Source: Sandaracinus amylolyticus (GTDB lineage Bacteria > Myxococcota_A > Polyangia > Polyangiales > Sandaracinaceae). From it: a stretch of DNA of 64,000 bases. Positions within the stretch are counted from its first letter, which is position 1; each line of letters opens with the position of its first letter. Positions 26,327 to 41,743 of the stretch are shown piece after piece. A model generated the notes under the pieces. It did no database searches. It saw only the letters and a list, made by a program, of their open reading frames with translations, and had not been told where the DNA came from. The position numbers were made by a program, and so were the translations under genes. Location: assembly GCF_000737325.1 (NCBI RefSeq), contig NZ_CP011125.1, positions 2,604,001-2,668,000 on the forward strand, in the 5' to 3' direction.

Positions 26327-26980
26327 CTACTGGAACATGAACATCGCGCCGAGGTTCAGCGCGAGCTCGTTCACCGTGACGGCGTAGTCGACGTCGCCGA
26401 CCACCGGCAGGTCGTCGCCGTTGAACACGTCGAGGTGTCGCCAGCCCAGCTCGATGAACCCGCCGATGCGCGCCGCGGTGATCACGGTGAGCCCCGCGAG
26501 CGCGCCGATGTTCCAGCCGGGCCACGCGGAGTCGTCGTCGTCGCCCGGCACCGTGAGCACGCCGAGCGTGAAGCCGATCGGCATCGCGGCGTACGGCTCG
26601 AGAAAGAGCTGGCCGCGGATCACTTCGAACATCGCGCGGATGCGCACCAACAGATCGAAGTGGAACGCCCACTCGCGCTCCGCGCCGTTGGCGTCCGGCT
26701 CGTAGCTCATCGCCTCGAAGAGACCGCCCACCGAGAAGAAGTCGAGGAACGGCTGCTCGATCCGGAACCCGAACCCCACGCTCGGATCGAGATCGTCGTC
26801 GAGCTCGAGCGTGCCGGCCTCGGAGCTCGTCGACGCGTCGTACTCGCCGCCGAAGCCGAGCCCGAGGTGCGCGCCGATGCGGAGGTGATCGTCGCGCTCG
26901 AGGATCTGCGCGCTCGCGTTCGCCGGAAACAGCAGCGCGGCGAGGAACGCGAATGGGATCGATGTTCGAAGCTGCCTCAT
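26327..26980 (-). CDS. Outer-membrane beta-barrel protein
   Basis: 217 residues. A signal peptide (FAFLAALLFPANASAQ) precedes alternating hydrophobic beta-strands with Gly/aromatic girdles (HLGLGFGGEYDA, VGFGFRIEQPFLDFF, WAFHFDLLVRIRAMF, LGVLTVPG, ALAGLTVITA) and a C-terminal Phe-containing strand ending MFMFQ. This is the pattern of an 8- to 10-stranded OmpA/OmpW-like barrel. No periplasmic domain. Expected role is a small porin or surface protein. Start ATG 26980. Confidence 0.75.
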   Translation of the reverse strand: MRQLRTSIPFAFLAALLFPANASAQILERDDHLRIGAHLGLGFGGEYDASTSSEAGTLELDDDLDPSVGFGFRIEQPFLDFFSVGGLFEAMSYEPDANGAEREWAFHFDLLVRIRAMFEVIRGQLFLEPYAAMPIGFTLGVLTVPGDDDDSAWPGWNIGALAGLTVITAARIGGFIELGWRHLDVFNGDDLPVVGDVDYAVTVNELALNLGAMFMFQ

Positions 26981-27012: not shown

Positions 27013-30000
27013 TCAGCCGAGCCTCACGCGCGCTGCAGCCACCTCGGAAGACGACACCACGCGCGGCGGATCGCGCGTCAGGTCCACGACGCGATCGCGA
27101 TCGCCGATCGTCGTGCGCACGAGCGGGCCTCGCGTCGACTCGAGGATCTGCGCGCTGCCGTACGCACGCAGCAGCGAGAGCGCGAGCAGCGCTTTCGCGG
27201 GCGCGTCGGCGCGCCGCCGCACCAGCGTGACCAGCGGCGCGCGCTCGGCGGGCGCGAGCGGTCGCGCGCGGGTCGGGATCGCCGCGACGAGGCCGAGCAC
27301 GAGCTCGGGGTACGCCGGGCCCGCGAGATCGATCAGGCGCGACGCGAGCGGCGCGAGATCCGCCTCGGCGCGCGCGACGAGCTCGCTCCACGCACCGAGA
27401 TCGTCGGTCGCGCTCGCGGCCTCGTCGAGCGCGCGGGCGATCGCGCCGCGCTCGAACGCGACGTCGAGGTGCACCTGGCCCGGCGGCGCGCCGCCGATCG
27501 CGACCTCGCTGATCCACGCGTGCCGCGTCCACACGAGGTCCTCGGTGCGCCCCTCGAGCGCGATCCACACGCGGCCGAGATCGCCGGGCGTGCCTTCACC
27601 CGGCTCGTGCTCCACGCGCGCTGCGCGCTCGCGCGCGGGCGCATCGTCCTCGGGCGCGGCATCGAGCACGCGATCGAGCCACGCCAGCGCGGCGCGCGCG
27701 TCCCAGGGCTCGCGCTCGGCGCCCTCGCGCGTGTCGTAGAGCGCCCGCAGCGGCGCGGTCTCCGCGCCGACGAGCCGCTCGAGCGCGAGCCGCGCGAGCC
27801 GCAGCAGATCGCCGATGCCTTCGTGGTGCAGGTGCTGCGCGAGCCCGCTCGCGCCGGGCGTGCGATCGAAGAGCGCGAGGCAGACGCGCTCGTCGAGGCG
27901 CACGACCTCGACGTCGATCAGATCCTCCGACGCGCGCAGGAGGCACGGCAGCATCGCGCGGATCGCGGTGGCGAGCGCGATCTCGGCGGCGCGCGGCAGC
28001 GCGGGCTCGATCACGACGAGGCACGCCTCGGTCGAGTACACGCTCGCGATCGGGTGCGCGTAGCTTCGCCGCTCCACGAGGCGCGGGCCCGGCGCGTAGC
28101 GGCGGATGCCGTGGAACGTCTCGGTGACCTCGGCGCGCGCGATCGCGATCGGGATCGGCGCGCCGCCGAGCGAGCGCTCGGAGAGCTCGAGCTTCGCGTG
28201 CACCTCGATCGCGACGCGACGATCGGGCGTGGTGCGGCCCGGAGGCTGGCCGTGCGCCGCGAGGAGGAGCCCCGGCTCGCTGGCGCTCTCGCGGACGAGA
28301 TACCGACCGCGCGCGTGCAGCGCGAGGCTGCCCGGCGGGTGCAACGCGCTCGCGGTCGAGAGGTCGAGCTCGCGCAGCACGTCGCGCGTGCCTTCGTCGA
28401 CGAGGCGCACGCGCGACGTCGACTCGCCGACGCAGGCGTCGCAGATGGGCTCGCCGATCGCGGCCTCGCTCGTGCTGCGCACCTTCGCGCGGGCGCGCGC
28501 GTCGTCGATGCGCGCGTCGAACTCGAGCACCGCGCGGCGCGCGACGCGGCCGCTCGCTTCGAGCCGACGCAGCGTCTCGTCCACGAACGGCGCGCCGAAC
28601 CGGGTGCGCAGCGCGTCGACGTCCTGCTCGCGACCGAGCGCGCGATCGAAGTGACGCTGGCGCACCACCTCGGGCTCGGAGAGCGGCACCGCGCGTGGCA
28701 GCGCGAGCGTGAGCGCGCGGAAGGGCGCGTCCTCGGCCTCGTCGTGCAGCGCGAGCTCGTCGCCGCGCGGCGGTGCGAGGATCACGAGCGTCTCGCCCTC
28801 GGGCGCGACGCGCTGGCCGGCGTGCGCGAGACGATCGGCCTCGCGGCGCACGTCGGGCCAGCGCCCTTCGATCATCACGATCTCGGCGTCGAGCGGATCC
28901 GCGACGTGCCCCGGGACGTGCGCCAGATCGATCGTGCTGCGCGCGATCCCGCGCCACGCGTCGCCCGCGAGCCGCAGGTGCCAGCGCAGCCCGGCGCGCG
29001 CGCAAGCCTCCGCGAGCTCGGCGATCGTGACCTCGCGCGCGTCGTCGCGGCGCAGATCGCGGCGCGTGATCGTCGCGTGCGCGGGGCGCGGCGCGCCGTC
29101 GCGCTCGAACACGCGCAGCGGCGCAGCGAGCAGGTGACGCGCCCAGCCCGCGATGCCGCTCGCGCTCGGGCCTGCGGTCGCGAGCAGCAGCGCGGGGTAG
29201 GGCGCGTCGTGCAGCGCGTCGAGCAGCGCCCACGTGCGGCGCGCGAGCATGTGCAGGTGCATCTCGCGCACGCCGGTGAAGCCCTCGACGTCGAGCACGA
29301 TCCACAAGCCGAGCCGCTTGAAGATCGCCTCGGTGCGCGCATCGGAGAGCACGTCGGACTCGAGCGCCTCGAGGTGCGCGACGACGATCGCGGGTGTGCG
29401 CTCGGCGAGCAGCGTCGCCGCGAGATCGTCGCCTGCGACCGCGACCGCAGCGTTCCATCGCGCGGCCGTGCGCTGCACCGCATCGCGCACGCGCTCCGCG
29501 AACGCGCGCGCCGAGGGCGCGTCGCGCGTGACGACGAGCGTCGTCGCGCCGCGATCGAGGAACACCTGCAGCGCAGCGAGCGCGCAGAGCGCGGTCCGTC
29601 CGGTGCCCTCGGGCAACAGCACGAGCGGGTGCTCGAGCGCGCCCTCGGCGCCTCGGAACGGCGCTCCCATCGCCTCTTCGCGCAGCTCCGGGGCCGCACC
29701 GCGCGCGGTCGGAGGCGCGGTGCGCCACATCGAGGCCAGGTGCTCGAGCACGTCGCGCTGGTGGGCGTAGAGCGAGCTCTGGCCGGTGAGGCGATGGAAC
29801 GCCTCGGCCGCGAGCGCCGCGGTGCGCTCGGGCAGCGCGGCGGTCTCGGCGGCGCGCGCGGGCGTGCGCATCGGCTTGGCGATCGTCGGCGCACCGGGTG
29901 CCTCGGCGAGCGCGGCGCGGAGGCGCTCGATCGCGGGCTCCGGCGGCGGCGCCTTCGCCTCGTCTTCGGCTTTCTTCTCGTCCTGCTCGGCGGGCGGGCG

Positions 30001-30813
30001 CGCCTGGGTGGCGAGGTGCACGCCGAGCACGGTGAGCAGGTAGAGCGCGAGCACCCACGCGCCGGGCGCGGGGCGCGCATCGTCGCGCGCCTGCTCGATC
30101 GGATCGTCCGCGTACGCCGCGGGCCGCACCGGCGCGGCCTGCTGGCCCTCGCGGCATGCCATCATGCCGGGCGGCTCATCCGCGACGAAGCGCACGTAGA
30201 AGAGCCAGCCCGCGATCCCGTGCGCGACGAAGATCGCGATCCAGAGCGGGCGCGCCCACCGTCGGAAGCGGTCGTCGGCGCGGCGCGTCGTGCTCGCGCC
30301 GACCCAGCGATGGAAGAACGGCAGGTCCTCCTGCTTCGTGCTCCACGCGAGCTGCGACGCGGAGACCACGAAGCGCTCGAGCAGCAGCGCGACGAGCGCG
30401 ATGATCGGCAGCCACACGATCGTGTGCAGCGCGATCGCGACGTCGGGATGCGCATCGAGCGGCACGAGCGGACGGCCCCACGGCGCGCCGAGGAGGCGCC
30501 ACTCGAAGTAGGAGACGCGCTCCCACAGCGCGGGGTCGACGTCTTCGGGGCGATGCAGTCGATCACGGAGGAACGGATCGGCGATCCGCGCGAGCCCGTA
30601 CAGCGCGACCGCGACGAGCGAGGCGGCGACCCACGTCGGCGTGTGGCTCGGTCGACCACGACCGCCGGGCAGCGCGCGCGCCGCGCGACCGAGCAGGTAC
30701 GACGTCGCGATCACGAGCAGCGACGGCACGAACGCGACGACGGTGATCCCGAGCCCGGGGATCAGCGCGGAGAGGCGCGCGAGCTCGCACGCGAAGCGCT
30801 CGAACGCGTTCAC
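27013..30813 (-). CDS. Membrane-anchored, degenerate MrfA/YprA-like SF2 helicase (third gene of tubulin-like operon)
   Basis: 1266 residues. Five hydrophobic segments lie at about 14-44, 58-78, 125-150, 188-212 and 251-270, then a Glu/Lys/Pro-rich linker. From about 340 the SF2 helicase order can be followed: LYAHQRDVL (Q-motif-like), LLPEGTGRTAL at Walker A without its Lys, LWIVLDVEGF in place of DExH, LLLATAGPS (motif III), and AHAGQRVAPEGETLVIL where motif VI should be. The C-terminal half matches the DUF1998/MZB-type region of MrfA/YprA helicases (HPPGSLALHARGRYLV, VCLALFDRTPGASGLAQHL) but lacks its zinc Cys cluster. ATPase activity is therefore doubtful. GTG 30813 overlaps the upstream stop (30810-30813). 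Confidence 0.75.
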   Translation of the reverse strand: MNAFERFACELARLSALIPGLGITVVAFVPSLLVIATSYLLGRAARALPGGRGRPSHTPTWVAASLVAVALYGLARIADPFLRDRLHRPEDVDPALWERVSYFEWRLLGAPWGRPLVPLDAHPDVAIALHTIVWLPIIALVALLLERFVVSASQLAWSTKQEDLPFFHRWVGASTTRRADDRFRRWARPLWIAIFVAHGIAGWLFYVRFVADEPPGMMACREGQQAAPVRPAAYADDPIEQARDDARPAPGAWVLALYLLTVLGVHLATQARPPAEQDEKKAEDEAKAPPPEPAIERLRAALAEAPGAPTIAKPMRTPARAAETAALPERTAALAAEAFHRLTGQSSLYAHQRDVLEHLASMWRTAPPTARGAAPELREEAMGAPFRGAEGALEHPLVLLPEGTGRTALCALAALQVFLDRGATTLVVTRDAPSARAFAERVRDAVQRTAARWNAAVAVAGDDLAATLLAERTPAIVVAHLEALESDVLSDARTEAIFKRLGLWIVLDVEGFTGVREMHLHMLARRTWALLDALHDAPYPALLLATAGPSASGIAGWARHLLAAPLRVFERDGAPRPAHATITRRDLRRDDAREVTIAELAEACARAGLRWHLRLAGDAWRGIARSTIDLAHVPGHVADPLDAEIVMIEGRWPDVRREADRLAHAGQRVAPEGETLVILAPPRGDELALHDEAEDAPFRALTLALPRAVPLSEPEVVRQRHFDRALGREQDVDALRTRFGAPFVDETLRRLEASGRVARRAVLEFDARIDDARARAKVRSTSEAAIGEPICDACVGESTSRVRLVDEGTRDVLRELDLSTASALHPPGSLALHARGRYLVRESASEPGLLLAAHGQPPGRTTPDRRVAIEVHAKLELSERSLGGAPIPIAIARAEVTETFHGIRRYAPGPRLVERRSYAHPIASVYSTEACLVVIEPALPRAAEIALATAIRAMLPCLLRASEDLIDVEVVRLDERVCLALFDRTPGASGLAQHLHHEGIGDLLRLARLALERLVGAETAPLRALYDTREGAEREPWDARAALAWLDRVLDAAPEDDAPARERAARVEHEPGEGTPGDLGRVWIALEGRTEDLVWTRHAWISEVAIGGAPPGQVHLDVAFERGAIARALDEAASATDDLGAWSELVARAEADLAPLASRLIDLAGPAYPELVLGLVAAIPTRARPLAPAERAPLVTLVRRRADAPAKALLALSLLRAYGSAQILESTRGPLVRTTIGDRDRVVDLTRDPPRVVSSSEVAAARVRLG

Positions 30814-33326
30814 GCGCCGTCCTCCGGGTCGCGCGCGGGAGCTCGACGAGCGAGCGTCGCGACGCGTGCTGCAGCCTCCTCTTCGATCTCGAAGCGAGGG
30901 GCTTCCGCGGCGCTCGGGGGCGTCGCGCTCGGCTTCGCGCTGCGCAGCGATGCGACGCGCTCGAGCTCGATGTCGGTCACGACCACGAGCCAGTACGCAC
31001 GATCCTCTTCGACGCCGCGCGCGCACCGGATCGGCGCGCCCGATGCGCTCTCCTTCTCGAGCCGCCGCGCGACCTCGGCCTCGGCCGCGGGCGGGACCAC
31101 GCCGACGCCGTCGTACACCACGTGCGCGTCGCCGCCGACCTCGCGACCCGTGAAGTCCAGCGCGACGCGCAGCGAGCGCGCCTGACGCCGCAGGAACGAC
31201 GCGATCTGCGCGCTCGCCGCCTCGGCGTCCTCGCTCTCCGCGAACGGATCCCACGTCGCGACGGGCTCGGCGTGCGGCGCCGCCCCCGCGCGCAACGACG
31301 CGAGCGACGAGAAGGGCACCTCGTCGCGCCATCGCCGCGCCCAGCCCTCGCGGTCGGCGAGCGCGCGCAGCAGATCGCGCTCGCGCGTCGGACGTGCGTC
31401 GGCCGGGAGCTGACGCAGCAGCGCCCGCGCCGCCGCCGCGCCCGCGAGGCCCTCGACCAACGTCTCGCCGCGGCCACCGAGCAGCCCCGAGAGATCGATG
31501 CGCTCGGCCTCGCGCACCACGCCGAGCGCGCGCTGCTCCGCGAGCAGCTCGGCGCGCGCTCGCTGCGCCGCGCGCTCGGCGAGCAAGAGCGCCTCGGCAT
31601 CACGGTCGAGCGTCGCGCGCAGCGCGAGCAGCGCCTGTACCCGCGCCGTCGCGCGCGACAAGCGCAGCCGCGTCGTGAAGTAGGTCGCGACCGAGCGCTG
31701 CTCGCCCGTCACGGTGCGTCGGATCGCGGCCCACATCTCGCGGTGCGCCTCGACCGCCGCGGCATGCGCGCGCCACACGTGCCACGCGAGGTGCGCGCCG
31801 ATCGCGATCAGCCCGGCGATGCCCGCGGTCCAGATCGCACGTGCGCGCAGCCACGGCTCGTACCAGTCGCTCGGCTGCGCGTCGATCGCGCCTGCGAGCT
31901 CCACGAGGATCGACGGCACCAGCACGATCGTCGCCATCGTCGCGAGCAGGCCCCAGAGCACCATGCGCGCGAGGTCCGGCTTGCGCCGCGCCGCATCGAG
32001 CAGCTCGGCGTGGCGCGCGCGCAGATCGTCGAAGCTCGGCGAGGGTGTCGGCTCGATCGCGTCGCGCTCCGTGATCGCGTCCTCGAGCCGCATCGCGACG
32101 CCGCGCCGCAGCTTGTCGACCAGCTCGGTCGTGCGACGGAACGCATCGGGCGACGGTGTGCCCCAGAGCTCGCGATCGACGCGCGCCTTCACCCGCGTGA
32201 TCAGCGACTCGCGCGCCGCTTCCATGTCGGCGCGCTCGCGCGCGACGAGGTCGTCGAAGCGCCGGCGCTGCAAGAGACGCCACGCGTCCTCGATCTGTCG
32301 CATGCGCTCGAGCGCGAACCCGAGCGGCTGATCGGGCGGCGGCTGCGGATCGTCGAGCGAGGGATCGCCGTGGTCGGGCCCGTAGCGCGCGCGGATCGTC
32401 TCCGCGCTCTCGTGCCAGCGCGGCGGCGCGTCGTTCTCGATCGGCGGCACGTAGCGCTCGAGCACGTCGCGCACGACGTGCGCCGCATCCGCGTTGGGAT
32501 CGAGCGCGTCGAGCTCCACCTGCTCGAGCGCGTCGACCTCCGAGAGCGTCGCGCCCTCGAGCTTCGCGTCGAGCACTGCGTCGAGCAGCTCGAGCGCGAC
32601 CTGGCTCGTCGCCCAGCGCCGGATGCGCTCGCGTGGCAGCTCCGCGACCGCGCACGCGAACGTCGCGAGCGGCGCGTCGGGCGCGGTGCCGTGCAGCACC
32701 GTCTGCACACGATCGAGCGCCGGTCGCGCGCGCAGCAAGAGCGTCACGAAGTTCCGGACGTTCTGCTCGAGCTCGCCCTCCGAGAGGATCGAGAACTCCG
32801 CGACGTCCTCGACGAGCCAGACCTGCGGCGTGCACCTGCGCGTCGAGGGACGTGCCCGCACCGCGCTCACGAGCGCGCGCACCGACGCGATGATCGCCTC
32901 GCCGTCCGCGTGCCCGTGGGGGTGCGGCATCGCGAGCATCGGCGCGACGATCGCGTTGCGCTCGCTGCCGGTGCGGAACGGCTCGAAGATCGGACCGAGC
33001 TCGCCGATCACGCGCTCCTCGATCGCCGCGAGCGCGCCCTCGATCGCGCCGCGCGGTCCGCGCTCTCCGAGGTGCGCGATCGGGATCACCAGCAGCTCGG
33101 TGAGCCCGTCCTCGCCCGCGGCATCGCGCGCTCGCACCATGCGCTCGTGCGCGAGCAGCGCGCGCGCCCGCTCGATCACGGCGGACGCGATCGCGCTCGG
33201 CGACGGGCACGGATCGAGCGCGATGAACGCGAAGGGCGCGCGGTCGCGCGGCAGCTCTTCTTCGAGCCGACGCGCGACGCTCGCGCCGAACGCACCGAGC
33301 CCGCAGACGATCGCCGCGGTGGTCAT
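30810..33326 (-). CDS. Membrane protein with tubulin-like N-terminus (second gene of tubulin-like operon)
   Basis: 838 residues. The N-terminus (AIVCGLGAFGASVARRLEEEL, then FAFIALD) aligns with the first nucleotide-binding loop and second strand of the adjacent tubulin-like protein, but the GGTGSG T4 loop is replaced by unrelated sequence, so nucleotide binding is doubtful. Residues about 340-425 are helical and charged. Two membrane segments lie at about 454-480 and 498-516. The rest is long and helical, rich in Arg/Glu/Ala, with coiled-coil character. No enzyme motif is seen. It starts 10 bp after the tubulin-like gene and overlaps the next gene by 4 bp. A membrane adaptor for the filament or GTPase is the simplest reading. 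Confidence 0.72.
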   Translation of the reverse strand: MTTAAIVCGLGAFGASVARRLEEELPRDRAPFAFIALDPCPSPSAIASAVIERARALLAHERMVRARDAAGEDGLTELLVIPIAHLGERGPRGAIEGALAAIEERVIGELGPIFEPFRTGSERNAIVAPMLAMPHPHGHADGEAIIASVRALVSAVRARPSTRRCTPQVWLVEDVAEFSILSEGELEQNVRNFVTLLLRARPALDRVQTVLHGTAPDAPLATFACAVAELPRERIRRWATSQVALELLDAVLDAKLEGATLSEVDALEQVELDALDPNADAAHVVRDVLERYVPPIENDAPPRWHESAETIRARYGPDHGDPSLDDPQPPPDQPLGFALERMRQIEDAWRLLQRRRFDDLVARERADMEAARESLITRVKARVDRELWGTPSPDAFRRTTELVDKLRRGVAMRLEDAITERDAIEPTPSPSFDDLRARHAELLDAARRKPDLARMVLWGLLATMATIVLVPSILVELAGAIDAQPSDWYEPWLRARAIWTAGIAGLIAIGAHLAWHVWRAHAAAVEAHREMWAAIRRTVTGEQRSVATYFTTRLRLSRATARVQALLALRATLDRDAEALLLAERAAQRARAELLAEQRALGVVREAERIDLSGLLGGRGETLVEGLAGAAAARALLRQLPADARPTRERDLLRALADREGWARRWRDEVPFSSLASLRAGAAPHAEPVATWDPFAESEDAEAASAQIASFLRRQARSLRVALDFTGREVGGDAHVVYDGVGVVPPAAEAEVARRLEKESASGAPIRCARGVEEDRAYWLVVVTDIELERVASLRSAKPSATPPSAAEAPRFEIEEEAAARVATLARRAPARDPEDGA

Positions 33327-33336
33327 CGCGCTGCGA

Positions 33337-36300
33337 TCAGCCGATCGCGCCGAGGATCGCCGCGACCTCGCGCAGCTCGTCGTACTCGCGCTTCTGGGCC
33401 GAGTCGAGGCCGGGCAGCAGCTCGAGCTGCATCGCGCGCTCGCTCCACGTCCTTCGTGCCCCCGCGACCTCGCTCATCGCCGCGCCGCTCTCGAACGCGC
33501 TCCGCAGCGGGAGGACGATCGACTGGAAGATCGCGGGCTTGCTCTCCTCGAGCGCGGCGAGCGCGCCCGCGGCCTCGATGGGGCCGCGACCGAGCGGCAG
33601 CCGCGACGCGCCGATCACCAGCTCGAGCCCGCTCTCCGCGCTCGTCACCGCGCCGCGCGCGATCCCGATCGCGAGCGCGCCGAGCGCGCCCTTCAGCTGC
33701 TTGCGCCGCGACTCGATCGCCGCGCGACGCTCCTCGGGATCCAGGTCGGGGAGCGCCTCCCAGTTCGCGTCGATGTGGAGCGGCCACGCCTTCTCGCGCT
33801 GCGCTTGGTAGCGCTGGTAGCAGGCCTTCATCTCCTCGTTCACGTGCGGGAAGCAGTAGAGCGGCACGCCGAGGATCGAGCGGTAGAAGACGAGGCGCTC
33901 GGCGTCCGGCCAGTCGTCGATCGTCTGCGCGCTCAGGCCCTCGGTCGCGCTCGCGAGGAGACGACCGAGCGCGCTGCCCGCGAGCGACGTGTGCACGCCG
34001 ACGAGCAGCATGTCGGTGTGCTTCATCAGGCTGCGCGCCTCCGGAGACAGACGCGTCAGGGGCTGCGCCTTGCCGATCGCCGCGCGCAGCTTGCGCAGCG
34101 CGTACTGCCGCACGTTCTCCTCGTTCCACAGCGACGCTGGCGAGAGCGGCGAGACTGCGCGCAGCGCGGCCTCGGGCGTCGTCTTGTTCCGCTCGCGCTC
34201 GGCGAGGCTTTCGCGGCGGTCAGTCCGCGAATCAGCAAGCAGAGCGTTTTGCGTGTGCAGCTCGTAGTACTTCGCTTCCAGCGCGATCGCCTGATCGAGC
34301 GTGAGCCCCGCGCGCTCCGCGGGATCGTCGCTGCGCGGATCGCCGAGGATCATCTTCGCGAGCACGCCCTCGGCGACCTCGACGAGCTTGCGCTCGATGT
34401 CGCTCACCATCTCGCGCGCCGTGCGCGACACCGGACGTCCACGCTCGTCGAAGCGCGGCCGCATCGCGTCCTCCACCGCGGCGACGATGTCCTTGCTGTC
34501 GCCCGTCTCGGGCCGCGTCGAGACCTGGTCGAGGTAGTACCAGCTCCAGAAGCGCTGCTTGCCGCTCGGGTGCTGCAGCGCCTCCACGTCGAGCGCGAAG
34601 TCGTTCACCTCGCCCGCGCCCGCATGACCGCCGTCGAGCTCGAAGCGACGCGCCTTCTCGTCGAGCTCGATCGACAAGCGCGACGCCGACGCCTCGATGT
34701 TGCGGAAGCTCGCGCGCAGCGCGTCCGCCGCGCGCCCCAGCGCGACCCGCAGCTCGTGCAGCGCGCTCTTCAGCAGGAGCGCGCGCTGCCGCTCGACCTG
34801 CTCGTTGAACGTCGCGACCGCGCGATCGCGCGCCGCCTCGAAGTCCTTGTCCTTGCGCAGCACCACCGCATCGAACCCGCCGTGCGTGCGCTTCAGCGTC
34901 GCCGCGTGCGCGTCCATCTCGCTGGTGAAGCGACCCTCGCGACCGAGCTCGCACTCCTTCGTGAGCCCCGCGATCTGTCGCGTCAGCTCGTCGAGCGCGC
35001 TCGCGCCGAGCAAGCCCGTGGGCTCGCGGAACATCGTGAGCACGTAGCGCTGCTCGTAGGGCGAGAGCTCGGGCGCGCCGTCGGGCCCCGCCTTCGCGAG
35101 CAGCTCCGGCCAGAACGTCCCACCATCGATCTGCGCGAGCACCGTGCCCAGCCGCGCCTGCACGTCGGCGCGCGCCTTCTCCACCTCGCGCCCGAGCGCG
35201 CCGATCGTGTTCGCGGGCGTCCACGATCCGTCGAGGATCCGGTCCGCGCTGATCTCGCGGATCTGCGTCGTCTTGCCGCGCAGCTCGGTCTCGATCCCGT
35301 GCAGCGTGGCCGCGACCTTCGCGCTCGCGGTCTCCTTCAGCGCGACGATGCGCTTCCAGATGCCGCCCTCGCGATCCTCCTCCGCGAGCAGATCGATGCG
35401 CGCGACGAAGCTCTGATCGACGCGCCGCGCGCGCTCGTCGGGCGACAGCGTGTCGAGCTCCGCGGGGTCGAGCGCGAAGCGCTTGAAGCGCTCGCGCTGC
35501 GACTCGCTCACCAGCGCCGGATCGTCGAGCAGCAGATAGCGCCGCACCGCGGCCGCGCTCCACCGGCGTGCGCAGTACTCGAGCAGATCCTTGCGCGGCA
35601 GGATCACCAGCGCCGAGCCCAGCGTTCCGTAGAACGCGCTGTATCCGTCGCTGCCGAGCTCCGCCGGGAAGAGCGCGCGCGACTCCTTCGTGTAGTTGTC
35701 GTAGTCCGCCTGCTGGTCGCCGAGGATCGGCGAGAACACCTGCAGATAGCTCGCGTCCGCGAGCGCCTCGCCCACCTCGTCGAGGCTGAAGCTCGCGGGG
35801 CGGTCGACGAGGTACACGAGGTCGTAGGGACGTCGCGCGACCGTCTTGCGGCTCTTGTTGCGCGGGTCGTAGTGGAACGCGATCGCGTCCGGCGAGCCGC
35901 TGGTGTTCGTGTCGAGCCGCATCAGGTGCTCGAGCTCTTTCAGCGCGGCGTACCCGTTCGCGTAGACCCCATCGCGGTTGCGCCCCGCGACCACCTCGAA
36001 CGCCTCGGGCAGGATCGCGAACCCGAACACGCGCGAGCGCTTGTCGCCCAGCGCGTCGCGCACGAGATAGCCGAACGGCAGGAACGCGCCCGATCCGGTG
36101 CCGCCCGCGACCGAGAAGTAGACGAACACCTGCACCGGCGCGTCGTGACGACGCATGCCCTGCGCGTGGTGCCGCAGCGCATCGAGGATCTCGCTCAGTC
36201 GTGCCGAGAGCGATCCGACCTCGACCGCGCGGTTGAACGAGAGCCGGCTCTCCACGCGGATCTGCCCCGCGCCCGCGCCGCTCTCCTCGCGGAAGCGGTA

Positions 36301-36615
36301 CCAGGGGTGCACCCACTGCGTGAAGTACGGATCCGCGTCGGCGAAGCGATCGCCACGGCGCAGCGACGAGTACTCGACCTTGTCGAAGTCGCTGATCGCG
36401 ACCGTGCTGTGGATCGCGCCCGGGCCCTGCCGCAGCCGCGCGAGGTCCGCCTCGTTCGTGTCGATCGCGAGGAAGCGGACGAGGCCCTCGTAGCGCACCG
36501 CGAAGTCGGCGCGCGCGCGCAGGTGCCGCGCGATGCGCCCGATCGCCCGGCCGCCCGAGCCGCCGAGGCCGACGAAGAGCGTCGGCGTGACCTCGCCCGG
36601 CAGGATGTTCGTCAT
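33337..36615 (-). CDS. Tubulin/FtsZ-superfamily protein (Tubulin_2/FtsZ-like), first gene of operon
   Basis: 1092 residues. Residues 13-32 (LFVGLGGSGGRAIGRIARHL) match loop T1; FLAIDTNEADL (48-58) the second strand; GGTGSG at 171-176 the tubulin/FtsZ signature loop T4; and NGYAALKELEHL (220-231) the nucleotide-contacting Asn helix. Beyond about residue 420, long helical and charged stretches carry coiled-coil character. This is the pattern of the FtsZ-like families described by genome context as possible membrane-remodelling proteins. GTP binding is likely, polymerisation unproven. It heads an operon with two membrane proteins; a VWA gene lies 2.6 kb further upstream. ATG 36615 begins at the conserved N-terminus, 12 bp after GGAGGT. 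Confidence 0.85.
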   Translation of the reverse strand: MTNILPGEVTPTLFVGLGGSGGRAIGRIARHLRARADFAVRYEGLVRFLAIDTNEADLARLRQGPGAIHSTVAISDFDKVEYSSLRRGDRFADADPYFTQWVHPWYRFREESGAGAGQIRVESRLSFNRAVEVGSLSARLSEILDALRHHAQGMRRHDAPVQVFVYFSVAGGTGSGAFLPFGYLVRDALGDKRSRVFGFAILPEAFEVVAGRNRDGVYANGYAALKELEHLMRLDTNTSGSPDAIAFHYDPRNKSRKTVARRPYDLVYLVDRPASFSLDEVGEALADASYLQVFSPILGDQQADYDNYTKESRALFPAELGSDGYSAFYGTLGSALVILPRKDLLEYCARRWSAAAVRRYLLLDDPALVSESQRERFKRFALDPAELDTLSPDERARRVDQSFVARIDLLAEEDREGGIWKRIVALKETASAKVAATLHGIETELRGKTTQIREISADRILDGSWTPANTIGALGREVEKARADVQARLGTVLAQIDGGTFWPELLAKAGPDGAPELSPYEQRYVLTMFREPTGLLGASALDELTRQIAGLTKECELGREGRFTSEMDAHAATLKRTHGGFDAVVLRKDKDFEAARDRAVATFNEQVERQRALLLKSALHELRVALGRAADALRASFRNIEASASRLSIELDEKARRFELDGGHAGAGEVNDFALDVEALQHPSGKQRFWSWYYLDQVSTRPETGDSKDIVAAVEDAMRPRFDERGRPVSRTAREMVSDIERKLVEVAEGVLAKMILGDPRSDDPAERAGLTLDQAIALEAKYYELHTQNALLADSRTDRRESLAERERNKTTPEAALRAVSPLSPASLWNEENVRQYALRKLRAAIGKAQPLTRLSPEARSLMKHTDMLLVGVHTSLAGSALGRLLASATEGLSAQTIDDWPDAERLVFYRSILGVPLYCFPHVNEEMKACYQRYQAQREKAWPLHIDANWEALPDLDPEERRAAIESRRKQLKGALGALAIGIARGAVTSAESGLELVIGASRLPLGRGPIEAAGALAALEESKPAIFQSIVLPLRSAFESGAAMSEVAGARRTWSERAMQLELLPGLDSAQKREYDELREVAAILGAIG

Positions 36616-36699: not shown

Positions 36700-37185
36700 C
36701 TACGTGCGAGGCGCGACGCGACCGCCTCCGCGAGTGCGCGTCGCGCTCGCGCGCGCACGCCGCGCGTTCGCCTCCGGCGACGTCGACGCGCGCGTCTGCC
36801 GGTTCTTGAGCTGGTTGTCCGGCTTCTGCGAGTTCGCGCTGCGGCGCGTCGACTTGCGCGACGGCGTCGACTTCGAGTCCTCGAGCGCATAGCGCGCGCT
36901 CGCCGCGTTCTTGCGCGAGTTGCGGCGCGCGGTGGACTCACCGCCCGCCTTCTTGTCCGTCGCGCTGACGCCCTTCTTGCTCGTGTCGACCGGGTAGTTC
37001 CCGTGCACCTTCTCGGGGCGCTTCAGCGCGTCGCCGAGGTCCTTCGAGCTGCGGCCGACACGACGGCCGATCAACGCGCCGCCGGGCGGCGCTGCGTTCG
37101 CCGCCTTCTTCGCGCCGCGATCGTCTTCACGGCGCGGGTGCGGGCTCCGCGTCTCGCCGCGCTGCCTCGTGTGGATCTTCGACAT
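36700..37185 (-). CDS. Small basic hypothetical protein
   Basis: 161 residues, strongly basic, low-complexity, rich in Arg, Lys, Ser, Ala and Asn; no hydrophobic segment. The C-terminal half (ARYALEDSKSTPSRKSTRRS, SPEANARRARASATRTR) resembles DNA- or RNA-associated basic tail proteins of several bacteria, but no defined family is recognised. A nucleic-acid-binding role is a guess from composition. Start ATG 37185. It sits on the same strand as, and 84 bp upstream of, the tubulin-like operon, so it might share its transcript. Confidence 0.6.
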   Translation of the reverse strand: MSKIHTRQRGETRSPHPRREDDRGAKKAANAAPPGGALIGRRVGRSSKDLGDALKRPEKVHGNYPVDTSKKGVSATDKKAGGESTARRNSRKNAASARYALEDSKSTPSRKSTRRSANSQKPDNQLKNRQTRASTSPEANARRARASATRTRGGGRVAPRT

Positions 37186-39235: not shown

Positions 39236-41743
39236 CTATCGTCGGAATTCGAGGAAGAGCTCTTCGCCGCGCCGGATGCGCACGCGCGACGGCACCGGGT
39301 GCGTGCCGCGCTCGAGCTCGACGTAGCGGCTCTCGGCGTCGTTCCAGCGCTCGACGCCGGGCCCCGTCACGACGAGCGACGCGCCGCCGCCGGGCTGCGC
39401 CTCGATGCGCCCGTCGGCGGGCTGTCGCTTGAGCGAGGGAAGCGGCGCGCGCGGACCGCCGAGCCAGACCGCCGCGGGCCTGCGGAACCCGCGCTTCGCC
39501 TCGGCGAAGCGACGCAGCAGGCGCCAGCCGTCGTCGCCCTCGCGCATCGAGAGCAGCTCGTCGTGGCTCGACGCGCTGAGCAGGAGCGCGCCGGGATCGA
39601 AGCGCGCCGGCGAGACGAAGCCGTGCACCAGCCAGATCAGGAACGCGAGCGCGAGCAGCGCCGCGAACGCCATCGCGATCTGCTTGCCGGGGCACGTCCA
39701 GAAGGGCGGCGCGTGCACCTCGACGCGCAGCGGCACCCGCAGCTCGCTGCGATCGTCGGCGACGAGCACCAGCGTCGTGTCGCGCGTGCCCGCGCCGCAG
39801 CAGTCGGCCGCGCTCGCGCGCAGCGTGATCGCCACCGCGCGATCCTCGCCCGCGACGAGCTGCGCGTGCGGCGTGATCGCGACCGCTTCGCGGGGGTCGG
39901 TCCGCGCGCCAGCCGACACCTCGAGGTCGTCACCCGCGCCCTCGACGTGCGCGTCGACGGCGCTTTCCGCGACCGGTCCGGGCACGCGCACCTCGCGCTC
40001 GATCGTCTCGCCGGCGGTGAGCTCGAGCGCGAGAGAAGTCATCGCTGCGTAGCGCAGCGTCGCGTCGATCGGCAGCGAGTGCGCGCCGACCTGATCGCTC
40101 GCCTCGGGCTCGACCACGAGGCGCATGCGGATCGGACGCGGTGCCGCGTCGCCCTCGCTCGCGCGCGGACAGAACGCGCGCGCGCGCACCGTCGCGTGGA
40201 CCGTGAACGCGTCCTGCAGCGACACCGCGTCGCCCTCGGGCAGCGCGCACTCGACGCACGACGCGAGCGCCTCCGCGCCCTCGATCTCGCACCGCACACG
40301 CGCGCGCGTGCCCGCGGGGAACGTGCCCTCGTAGCGCAGCGAGAGATCCTCGGAGACCGCGCGCGGGATCTCGCCGAGATCGATCGACGAGACCGCGCGC
40401 TCGTCGCGCGTCACGCGCTGCACGCCGAAGCTCATCGCCGCGAAGCCGCGCGTCGCGATCACCGGCGCGGCGAGCGCGCCGCCGCGCGCGCGGAACGTGC
40501 GCTCGTGACGGCCCCGCGCGACCTCCGCGCCGAGCTGCGCGTGGAACACGCCGTCGCCGCCGGGCTGCATCGGGCTCGGCCCTCCTCCTTCGGACCGGGA
40601 GGCGCACTCGCTCGTCTCGCAGAGCTCGATGCCGAAGTCGAACGAGCGCGCGGGCACGATCGTCTGGCCGGTGTCGCCGACGAGCCGCGCGAACGCGCAC
40701 GCAGGCTGCCCCGCGCGCACCGCGATCTCGGCGTCGAACGAGGGCCGCTCCTGCTCGCACGGCGCGACGACGGCCTCGACGCGGAGCCGGCCGTACACCG
40801 GGATCACCAGCGTGTCGACGCCGGGCGTCGCGCTGCGCACCGCGAACGGCGCGTCGCGCGGCGCGACCGTCGTCGTGCGGAAGCTCCAGTCGTGCGTGGG
40901 CTCGCGGTACGTCGCGCCGCCGGGGATCGCGACGGCGTGTCCGTCGCGATCGACCTGCTCGAGCGCGATCGCGCCGTCCCCTTGATCACGGATCGCGAGC
41001 ACGCGCACCGTGCGCGCGCCCGCGAAGGTGCGCTCGAGCCCGACGCGCCCGCCCTCGTCGTAGCGCAGGCCGCGCGAGAACGAGAGCACGTCGGCGAACG
41101 CGCGCAGCAGCGAGCGCGCGTCGAACGCGACGCGGGTGTCGCCCTCCCAGCCGGTGTGGCGCCCGTAGCTCTCGAGCGTGCGGTCGAGGCGCTCCGGCCC
41201 TCGTCGCATCAGCAGGACGAAGCGGAAGCGACCCTCGCGGTGCGCGCGCAGCGAGCCGAGCCATCGCTCCGCGGGCTCGACCGCGCCGCCGTTGCACGCG
41301 CCGTCGGTGAGCATGAGCAGCGTCTGCGGCGCGCCGGCGGACGCGGCGGGCTCGAGCAGCGCGCGCGCGGCCTCGAGCGCGGCGCGGCACGGCGTCTGGC
41401 CTTCGTGCTGCTCGAGGCGCTGCACGCGATCGCCGGCGATCGCGCGCGCGCCTTCCTGCGCGCGATCGGGCAGCAGCTCGCGCGGCGACACGAAGCGCGG
41501 CGACGTGATCGCGCCCGACGCGAGCTCGTTCAGCCCGACGAGCATCACCTGATCGCCGTCCTCGAGCGCCGCGGCGAGCGCGAGCGCGGCGAGCGGCGCG
41601 AGGCGGCGTGGATCGCTGGCGTCCATCGAGCCCGAGTCGTCGAGCACGACGAGGTACTGCCCGTACGACGCGGACTGCGCGCGCGCGGCGCTCGGGATCA
41701 GCGCGAGCGCGAGGGCGAGCGACGCGAGGAGAGATCGGAGCAC
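39236..41743 (-). CDS. Secreted/membrane-anchored von Willebrand A domain protein
   Basis: 835 residues. A signal peptide (LALALIPSAARA) precedes a VWA domain starting near residue 28, with MIDAS motif D35-x-S37-x-S39 and LTDGACNGG later. The middle 500 residues are beta-rich modules with periplasmic-type Cys pairs. One C-terminal membrane segment (IAMAFAALLALAFLIWLV, about residue 698) is followed by a 120-residue cytoplasmic part. VWA proteins bind ligands via a metal ion. It is on the same strand as the tubulin-like operon 2.6 kb away but in a separate transcription unit. GTG 41743 is immediately before the signal; weak RBS. Confidence 0.82.
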   Translation of the reverse strand: MLRSLLASLALALALIPSAARAQSASYGQYLVVLDDSGSMDASDPRRLAPLAALALAAALEDGDQVMLVGLNELASGAITSPRFVSPRELLPDRAQEGARAIAGDRVQRLEQHEGQTPCRAALEAARALLEPAASAGAPQTLLMLTDGACNGGAVEPAERWLGSLRAHREGRFRFVLLMRRGPERLDRTLESYGRHTGWEGDTRVAFDARSLLRAFADVLSFSRGLRYDEGGRVGLERTFAGARTVRVLAIRDQGDGAIALEQVDRDGHAVAIPGGATYREPTHDWSFRTTTVAPRDAPFAVRSATPGVDTLVIPVYGRLRVEAVVAPCEQERPSFDAEIAVRAGQPACAFARLVGDTGQTIVPARSFDFGIELCETSECASRSEGGGPSPMQPGGDGVFHAQLGAEVARGRHERTFRARGGALAAPVIATRGFAAMSFGVQRVTRDERAVSSIDLGEIPRAVSEDLSLRYEGTFPAGTRARVRCEIEGAEALASCVECALPEGDAVSLQDAFTVHATVRARAFCPRASEGDAAPRPIRMRLVVEPEASDQVGAHSLPIDATLRYAAMTSLALELTAGETIEREVRVPGPVAESAVDAHVEGAGDDLEVSAGARTDPREAVAITPHAQLVAGEDRAVAITLRASAADCCGAGTRDTTLVLVADDRSELRVPLRVEVHAPPFWTCPGKQIAMAFAALLALAFLIWLVHGFVSPARFDPGALLLSASSHDELLSMREGDDGWRLLRRFAEAKRGFRRPAAVWLGGPRAPLPSLKRQPADGRIEAQPGGGASLVVTGPGVERWNDAESRYVELERGTHPVPSRVRIRRGEELFLEFRR

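Follow-up and report, generated by a model that had tools for sequence, protein, structure and literature searches.

We analysed a 64,000-nucleotide stretch of the Sandaracinus amylolyticus genome (contig NZ_CP011125.1, positions 2,604,001 to 2,668,000; a 10.3-Mb single-contig genome), hereafter the window, in order to understand three coupled genes that encode a tubulin-like protein (gene 1), a membrane protein resembling tubulin (gene 2), and a membrane-anchored relative of a helicase (gene 3). Gene 1 belongs to the FtsZl1 family, and its GTP loops are intact. According to its predicted structure, gene 2 is a tubulin-fold membrane protein that has lost the phosphate loop and whose fold is interrupted midway by a membrane hairpin. 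Gene 3 is a membrane-anchored MrfA/YprA pseudo-helicase. The set is co-inherited as a unit, and a gene for a protein with a vWA domain at 39236-41743 belongs to the functional unit. Because the set is inherited together across the phylum, it suggests an unrecognised membrane-bound cytoskeletal machine, and we consider the chances about even that the locus encodes a tubulin-family scaffold attached to the inner membrane, in which an FtsZl1 polymer would be tethered and coupled to a periplasmic vWA sensor. What is new here is the addition of two components, the membrane pseudo-tubulin and the membrane pseudo-helicase, to the known FtsZl1-vWA theme.

All three open reading frames lie on the minus strand where a sequence-only reading of this DNA had placed them, with ATG starts for genes 1 and 2 and a GTG start for gene 3. 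That reading also described tight spacing, and the sequence itself gives a 10-bp gap between genes 1 and 2 and a 4-bp overlap (GTGA) between genes 2 and 3. The latter overlap is also found in four other loci (L003, L006, L010, and L013), and order and coupling are maintained in at least two myxococcotal lineages. Conservation of genes 1 and 2 extends to 13 other loci, eight of which also carry gene 3, and gene 3 is found elsewhere in further genomes. The codon score puts the coding potential far above chance and, together with the conservation in 13 other loci, rules out chance or mis-called open reading frames. The earlier description was right to call the proteins tubulin-like and helicase-like and to group the three genes. 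However, it did not name FtsZl1 or MrfA/YprA, and it overlooked the vWA partner gene.

Gene 1 matches the Tubulin_2 profile (PF13809 in Pfam) at 2.6e-54 over the full length of the profile (residues 13-358 of the protein; 185 bits against a curated cut-off of 27), which places it inside the tubulin superfamily, as had been proposed. The two loops first noticed in its sequence are present, GLGGSGG at residue 16 and GGTGSG at residue 171, and the latter is retained in 30/30 gene-1 relatives examined. Judging from these sequence features, gene 1 is the probable GTP-binding subunit. It is the sole Tubulin_2 gene of the genome, and an ordinary FtsZ is encoded separately elsewhere. A single-sequence search against solved structures returned nothing credible, and a search with the gene-1 profile matched CetZ alone (0.007). 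FtsZl1 was defined as a family by Makarova and Koonin in 2010, with Plesiocystis (P. pacifica) among their species, and membrane remodelling was proposed for it from its vWA, kinase, GTPase, and OmpA neighbours (PMC2875224). We found no demonstrated function of FtsZl1 in the literature.

Gene 2 fits no family in Pfam, NCBIfam, or PADLOC, and its sequence search against solved structures gave nothing credible. Using an AlphaFold model built from 21 sequences (mean predicted local distance difference test (pLDDT) 83.7), we found that CetZ (3zid) is its top structural match in VIA-align (Z 17.3, 269 residues, root-mean-square deviation (rmsd) 5.7), followed by TubZ, FtsZ, and tubulins; all 50 listed matches belong to the tubulin superfamily, with Z from 15.3 to 17.3. 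Since the ~270 aligned residues are spread across residues 2 to ~800 of the model, the tubulin domain is predicted to be split by an insertion, with both halves forming one domain. The insertion is helical, several hundred residues long, and contains both membrane segments. Two segments return the chain to the same side of the membrane, which matches what a split tubulin domain requires. The sequence-only reading had reported two membrane segments and a first loop without GGTGSG, and both observations stand: a T1-like loop, GLGAFG, begins at residue 9, and the T4 phosphate loop (GG[TS]G[ST]G) is absent from all gene-2 sequences. Because of this absence, gene 2 is not classed as a GTP-binding tubulin. 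In profile comparison (hhalign), genes 1 and 2 match with E 5.4e-5 and probability 66%, compared with 0.13-0.64 for unrelated pairs, over one stretch only (about S5-S6-H7), which points to their relation by duplication without proving it. In another lineage of the phylum (L159, L160, L161, L165, and L166), gene 2 encodes 1300-1500 aa, and its profile-matching part is preceded by ~500 additional residues; the two such proteins that we scanned contain no Pfam family.

The Pfam matches of gene 3 in the window fall below the cut-off (DEAD, 0.0065; MZB, PF09369, 0.037), and more diverged relatives show both families over the cut-off in three cases and MZB alone in a fourth. The model of its soluble part (pLDDT 84.8) consists of two RecA domains and DUF1998 and matches the MrfA helicase 6znp best (Foldseek E 1.5e-27; Z 29.1, 642 residues, rmsd 6.0). 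The sequence profile agrees, matching YprA (MrfA) with E 5.9e-24. Gene 3 has five hydrophobic segments, and the about five membrane segments and helicase-like body described earlier were confirmed. To define what separates gene 3 from its family, we compared the motifs of 31 gene-3 proteins with those of seven ordinary YprA helicases encoded in related genomes. All 31 gene-3 proteins have membrane segments at the N-terminus, and none of the seven ordinary helicases has any there. In contrast, DExH is kept in 7/7 ordinary proteins and 0/31 gene-3 proteins, with motif II changing from VV(V/I)DELHxYRG to VVxDDxDxFxG or remoter forms, and motif VI (QRxGRAGR / QRxGRxGR) likewise is present in 7/7 and 0/31. 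The Walker lysine is replaced by arginine in the clade of the window, kept in some lineages (GKT or GKS), and the whole loop is missing in others. The DNA-contact motifs Ia and Ib (PTKAL, TNPD) are gone in the gene-3 members compared, and the zinc cysteines are left only in diverged relatives. The absence of DExH and QRxGRxGR and the change of the Walker lysine to arginine make gene 3 a pseudo-helicase derived from this family rather than a helicase, in line with the loss of enzyme motifs suggested earlier. The gene-3 profile also gives many 60-80-bit matches in genomes without gene 1, mainly to the helicase core; we read these as ordinary YprA helicases, seven of them checked by motifs.

We considered whether gene 3 could still work as a nucleotide-dependent machine, in which a modified Walker loop would bind ATP and nucleic acid would be moved or held at the membrane while the tubulin pair positions it, for example in DNA uptake or segregation. 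The intact fold at high model confidence and the GKT or GKS of some relatives fit such a role, but the catalytic glutamate of motif II and the arginines of motif VI are gone in all 31 proteins, and the Walker lysine is arginine in the window's clade, with no Walker loop at all in other relatives. We regard this as improbable.

The vWA protein is predicted to carry a signal peptide, one membrane segment, and a cytoplasmic tail. The tail is conserved, and the metal-ion-dependent adhesion site (MIDAS) motif is intact. In the window its gene lies 2.6 kb upstream of gene 1 with small genes between, as in the sister genome, and in many relatives the orthologue is directly upstream of gene 1. A vWA protein is also encoded upstream of gene 1 in the majority of diverged loci, and in families outside the class Polyangia genes 1, 2, and 3 again follow a vWA gene in that order. 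One branch (L128, L129, L130, and L126) has an extra gene of ~780-806 aa before the presumed vWA gene; the L128 copy has no Pfam match.

The three genes co-occur in relatives in the same order. With gene 1 falling in Tubulin_2, neither of the two outcomes named beforehand as refuting the sequence-only reading was obtained. Among 193 Polyangia genomes, 27 contain gene 1, and gene 3 is present in 24 of these 27 compared with 0 of the 166 without gene 1 (Fisher 1e-27, ignoring kinship). Five of the 24 gene-3-positive genomes have a C-terminal gene-3 match only, either on the same contig as gene 1 or on a different one, and in the three gene-1 genomes without gene 3 the contig stops before the place where gene 3 is expected. 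Gene 3 does not follow gene 2 in Plesiocystis (L009) or in L012 and might on this ground have been taken as dispensable; this is ruled out, since it is present elsewhere in the Plesiocystis genome and ~9 kb downstream of gene 2 in the genome of L012 (L055). An unlinked gene 3 is still present in the genomes checked. Across the phylum, gene 2 is found in 35/284 genomes. Trees of genes 1, 2, and 3 over 24 loci agree with r 0.95-0.97, compared with at most 0.49 in 2000 permutations.

Starting from the computed anatomy, predicted membrane attachment, catalytic-motif loss, and co-inheritance, we infer polymerisation, tethering, sensing, and an output as follows. FtsZl1 would assemble in a GTP-dependent manner on the cytoplasmic face of the inner membrane. 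Gene 2 would join or cap the polymer via tubulin-tubulin contacts and tie it to the membrane, a role that can be likened to that of FtsA, ZipA, or SepF for FtsZ. Gene 3 would serve as a rigid membrane platform and not as a motor, with the helicase fold reused for protein contacts. The vWA protein may respond to a peptide, a protein, or a divalent cation in the periplasm, and its tail would relay this state so that assembly is turned on or off. The output could be local membrane shaping or the positioning of an envelope process, agreeing with the 2010 proposal of Makarova and Koonin. Taken as a whole, an unrecognised envelope-spanning cytoskeletal machine, in which a tubulin relative that binds GTP would form polymers on the inner membrane with a nucleotide-free membrane tubulin and an emptied-helicase platform under vWA control, is a tentative proposal that we place slightly short of an even chance.

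Several observations weigh against the scaffold reading. With the whole gene-2 model, Foldseek returned mainly long-helix matches and nothing below 0.001, and because of this the tubulin assignment of gene 2 rests on VIA-align. The T6-H7 elements of FtsZl1 could not be identified in its original description (PMC2875224). Gene 3 or the vWA gene is non-adjacent in some genomes. Finally, ATP binding may persist in those gene 3 relatives whose sequence keeps the Walker lysine.

Phage defence had been raised as another role for the locus. Here a membrane-bound pseudo-YprA would recognise phage DNA or protein, FtsZl1 would amplify the signal, and the membrane partners would act by disrupting the membrane or by blocking infection. 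DISARM, Dpd, Druantia, and ARMADA all have a YprA helicase at their core (PMC12458937), tubulin-vWA operons have been classed with NTP (nucleoside triphosphate)-dependent conflict systems (PMC7159879), and vWA-FtsZl1 genes stand next to BrxL in three Deinococcota plasmids. However, PADLOC gave no match for the three proteins and only a generic Ser/Thr kinase among ten nearby proteins, Pfam revealed no defence gene among the neighbours examined, and the window bears no sign of a defence island. The set is without a nuclease or recognisable toxic effector, the gene-3 members compared have lost the DNA-contact motifs, and its tree-like co-inheritance is unlike that of fast-moving defence islands. 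We therefore consider a defence role unlikely. An aid to trafficking or secretion, with the tubulin pair and membrane platform ringing a transporter and the vWA protein acting as a periplasmic chaperone, is a still fainter prospect: OmpA-type and transport genes lie near FtsZl1 genes in other phyla (PMC2875224), and FtsZl1 of Azospirillum sp. TSA2s adjoins OmpA and caspase-family genes, whereas no transporter or secretion component is recognisable as a constant member in the loci read.

The scaffold that we favour shares parts with several known systems. The FtsZl1-vWA operon has been described (PMC2875224) and resembles the present locus in the profile of gene 1, the vWA partner, and membrane-associated neighbours of unknown kind; the main text of that article leaves the other operon genes without recognisable domains and has neither a second tubulin fold with membrane segments nor a helicase-derived partner. 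YprA helicases are known from MrfAB, DISARM, Dpd, Druantia, and ARMADA, and a survey published in 2025, which covers about 52,000 YprA-like proteins, distinguishes clades for defence and for repair, with the words tubulin and transmembrane absent from its text (PMC12458937). Gene 3 resembles MrfA/YprA helicases in the fold and sequence of its soluble body, including YPDxRREAxxxxHAG and the PGxxG segments of DUF1998. In contrast to them, it is membrane-anchored and lacks DExH, QRxGRxGR, and the DNA-contact motifs, and its cassette partners are a tubulin pair and a vWA protein, not nucleases or methyltransferases. The GTPase-centric tubulin systems of GAP1-N2 (Kaur et al. 2020, PMC7159879), a theme reportedly confined to firmicutes and actinobacteria, likewise combine tubulin-family proteins (two in firmicutes) with a membrane vWA protein, but they are built around a different GTPase and FNIII proteins that were not seen here, and no pseudo-helicase is described for them. 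Pfam scans found no GAP1-N2-type GTPase or FNIII-repeat protein among the window neighbours scanned, a result obtained without a dedicated model search. Gene 2 shares its fold with CetZ, TubZ, FtsZ, and tubulin (Z 15-17), and differs from them in lacking the T4 loop and in its long helical insertion with the membrane hairpin. We found no description of a pseudo-helicase or membrane-spanning pseudo-tubulin of this kind in the open-licence literature, supplements excluded, an absence that is not proof.

If the scaffold is real, gene 2 would be a case of membrane segments placed within a tubulin fold, and gene 3 a case of an SF2 (superfamily 2) helicase fold turned into a membrane scaffold. FtsZl1, known since 2010 as a widespread tubulin family, would gain two identified constant partners in this phylum, and membrane proteins so far uncharacterised would become a defined machine with testable contacts. 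The YprA family, on which work has otherwise dealt with DNA repair and phage defence, would gain an unexpected branch, and the arrangement would give bacteria a counterpart to those tubulin systems whose polymer is organised by catalytically silent subunits.

Table 1. Features of the locus and of the vWA gene (window coordinates)
Feature	Coordinates	Strand	Basis
Gene 1, FtsZl1 / Tubulin_2, 1092 aa, soluble, probable GTP-binding subunit	33337..36615	-	PF13809
Gene 1 T1 loop GLGGSGG, residues 16-22	36550..36570	-	sequence; invariant in alignment A3
Gene 1 T4 loop GGTGSG, residues 171-176	36088..36105	-	sequence; invariant across lineages
Gene 2, predicted membrane-spanning tubulin-fold protein without T4 loop, 838 aa	30810..33326	-	AlphaFold model and VIA-align
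Gene 2 T1-like loop GLGAFG, residues 9-14	33285..33302	-	sequence; G9, G11, F13, G14 invariant in alignment A1
Gene 2 PMLAMPHP, residues 129-136, after strand 4, roughly at the position of tubulin GGTGSG	32919..32942	-	alignment A1, not structure
Gene 2 membrane segment 1, residues 456-474	31905..31961	-	hydropathy 2.2
Gene 2 membrane segment 2, residues 497-515	31782..31838	-	hydropathy 1.6
Gene 3, polytopic membrane protein with MrfA/YprA (DUF1998) pseudo-helicase body, 1266 aa	27013..30813	-	Foldseek, structure alignment, profile
Gene 3 membrane region, about five segments, residues 11-270	30004..30783	-	hydropathy
Gene 3 degenerate motif I GTGRT, residues 403-407, Lys to Arg	29593..29607	-	motif alignment
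Gene 3 degenerate motif II DVEG, residues 508-511, DExH lost	29281..29292	-	motif alignment
Gene 3 region matching the MrfA Zn-binding domain, Zn cysteines lost	27775..27975	-	weak PF09369 match 0.037
vWA protein, signal peptide, 835 aa, one membrane segment, predicted cytoplasmic tail	39236..41743	-	PF13519 9.5e-6
vWA MIDAS motif DDSGS, residues 35-39	41627..41641	-	D35, S37, S39 invariant in alignment A8
vWA membrane segment, about residues 688-707	39623..39682	-	sequence and alignment

Two further genes flank the locus on the minus strand of the window. Just upstream of gene 1, 36700-37185 encodes a very basic low-complexity protein of 161 aa with no clear family, and the sister genome likewise has a 161-aa gene between its vWA gene and gene 1 (L054, 4986-5471). 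Downstream of gene 3, separated by 33 bp, 26327-26980 encodes a 217-aa signal-peptide protein resembling an outer-membrane barrel; we rejected this outer-membrane-type gene as a fifth part of the set since it is found only in the window's own genus.

FtsZl1 neighbourhoods in other phyla were also inspected. On a plasmid of Azospirillum ramasamyi (L171, 12123-17601), FtsZl1 is followed by a membrane-hairpin protein and then by a polytopic protein whose YprA RecA1 core is very degenerate and which matches the gene-3 profile with E 5e-5 compared with 0.03 or worse for 21 controls. The cluster is probably a far relative of the cassette and, given its gene order and this profile match, the cassette order probably extends to Alphaproteobacteria. 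Two kinds of FtsZl1 neighbour, the Thermus type (~680 aa) and that of Azospirillum (710 aa), were compared with gene 2 as possible equivalents, and neither comparison was significant. Plasmids of Meiothermus, Thermus, and Allomeiothermus (L170, L172, and L173; Deinococcota) show the order vWA, FtsZl1, ~680-aa hypothetical protein, BrxL, with an insertion sequence (IS) element preceding BrxL in one of the three. RecQ-family helicase, exonuclease, or DUF1156 genes lie in their vicinity, and this version of FtsZl1 thus stands in a BREX-like setting. On plasmid p2 of Azospirillum sp. TSA2s (L175), FtsZl1 is located among caspase-family, OmpA-family, and DUF4384 genes.

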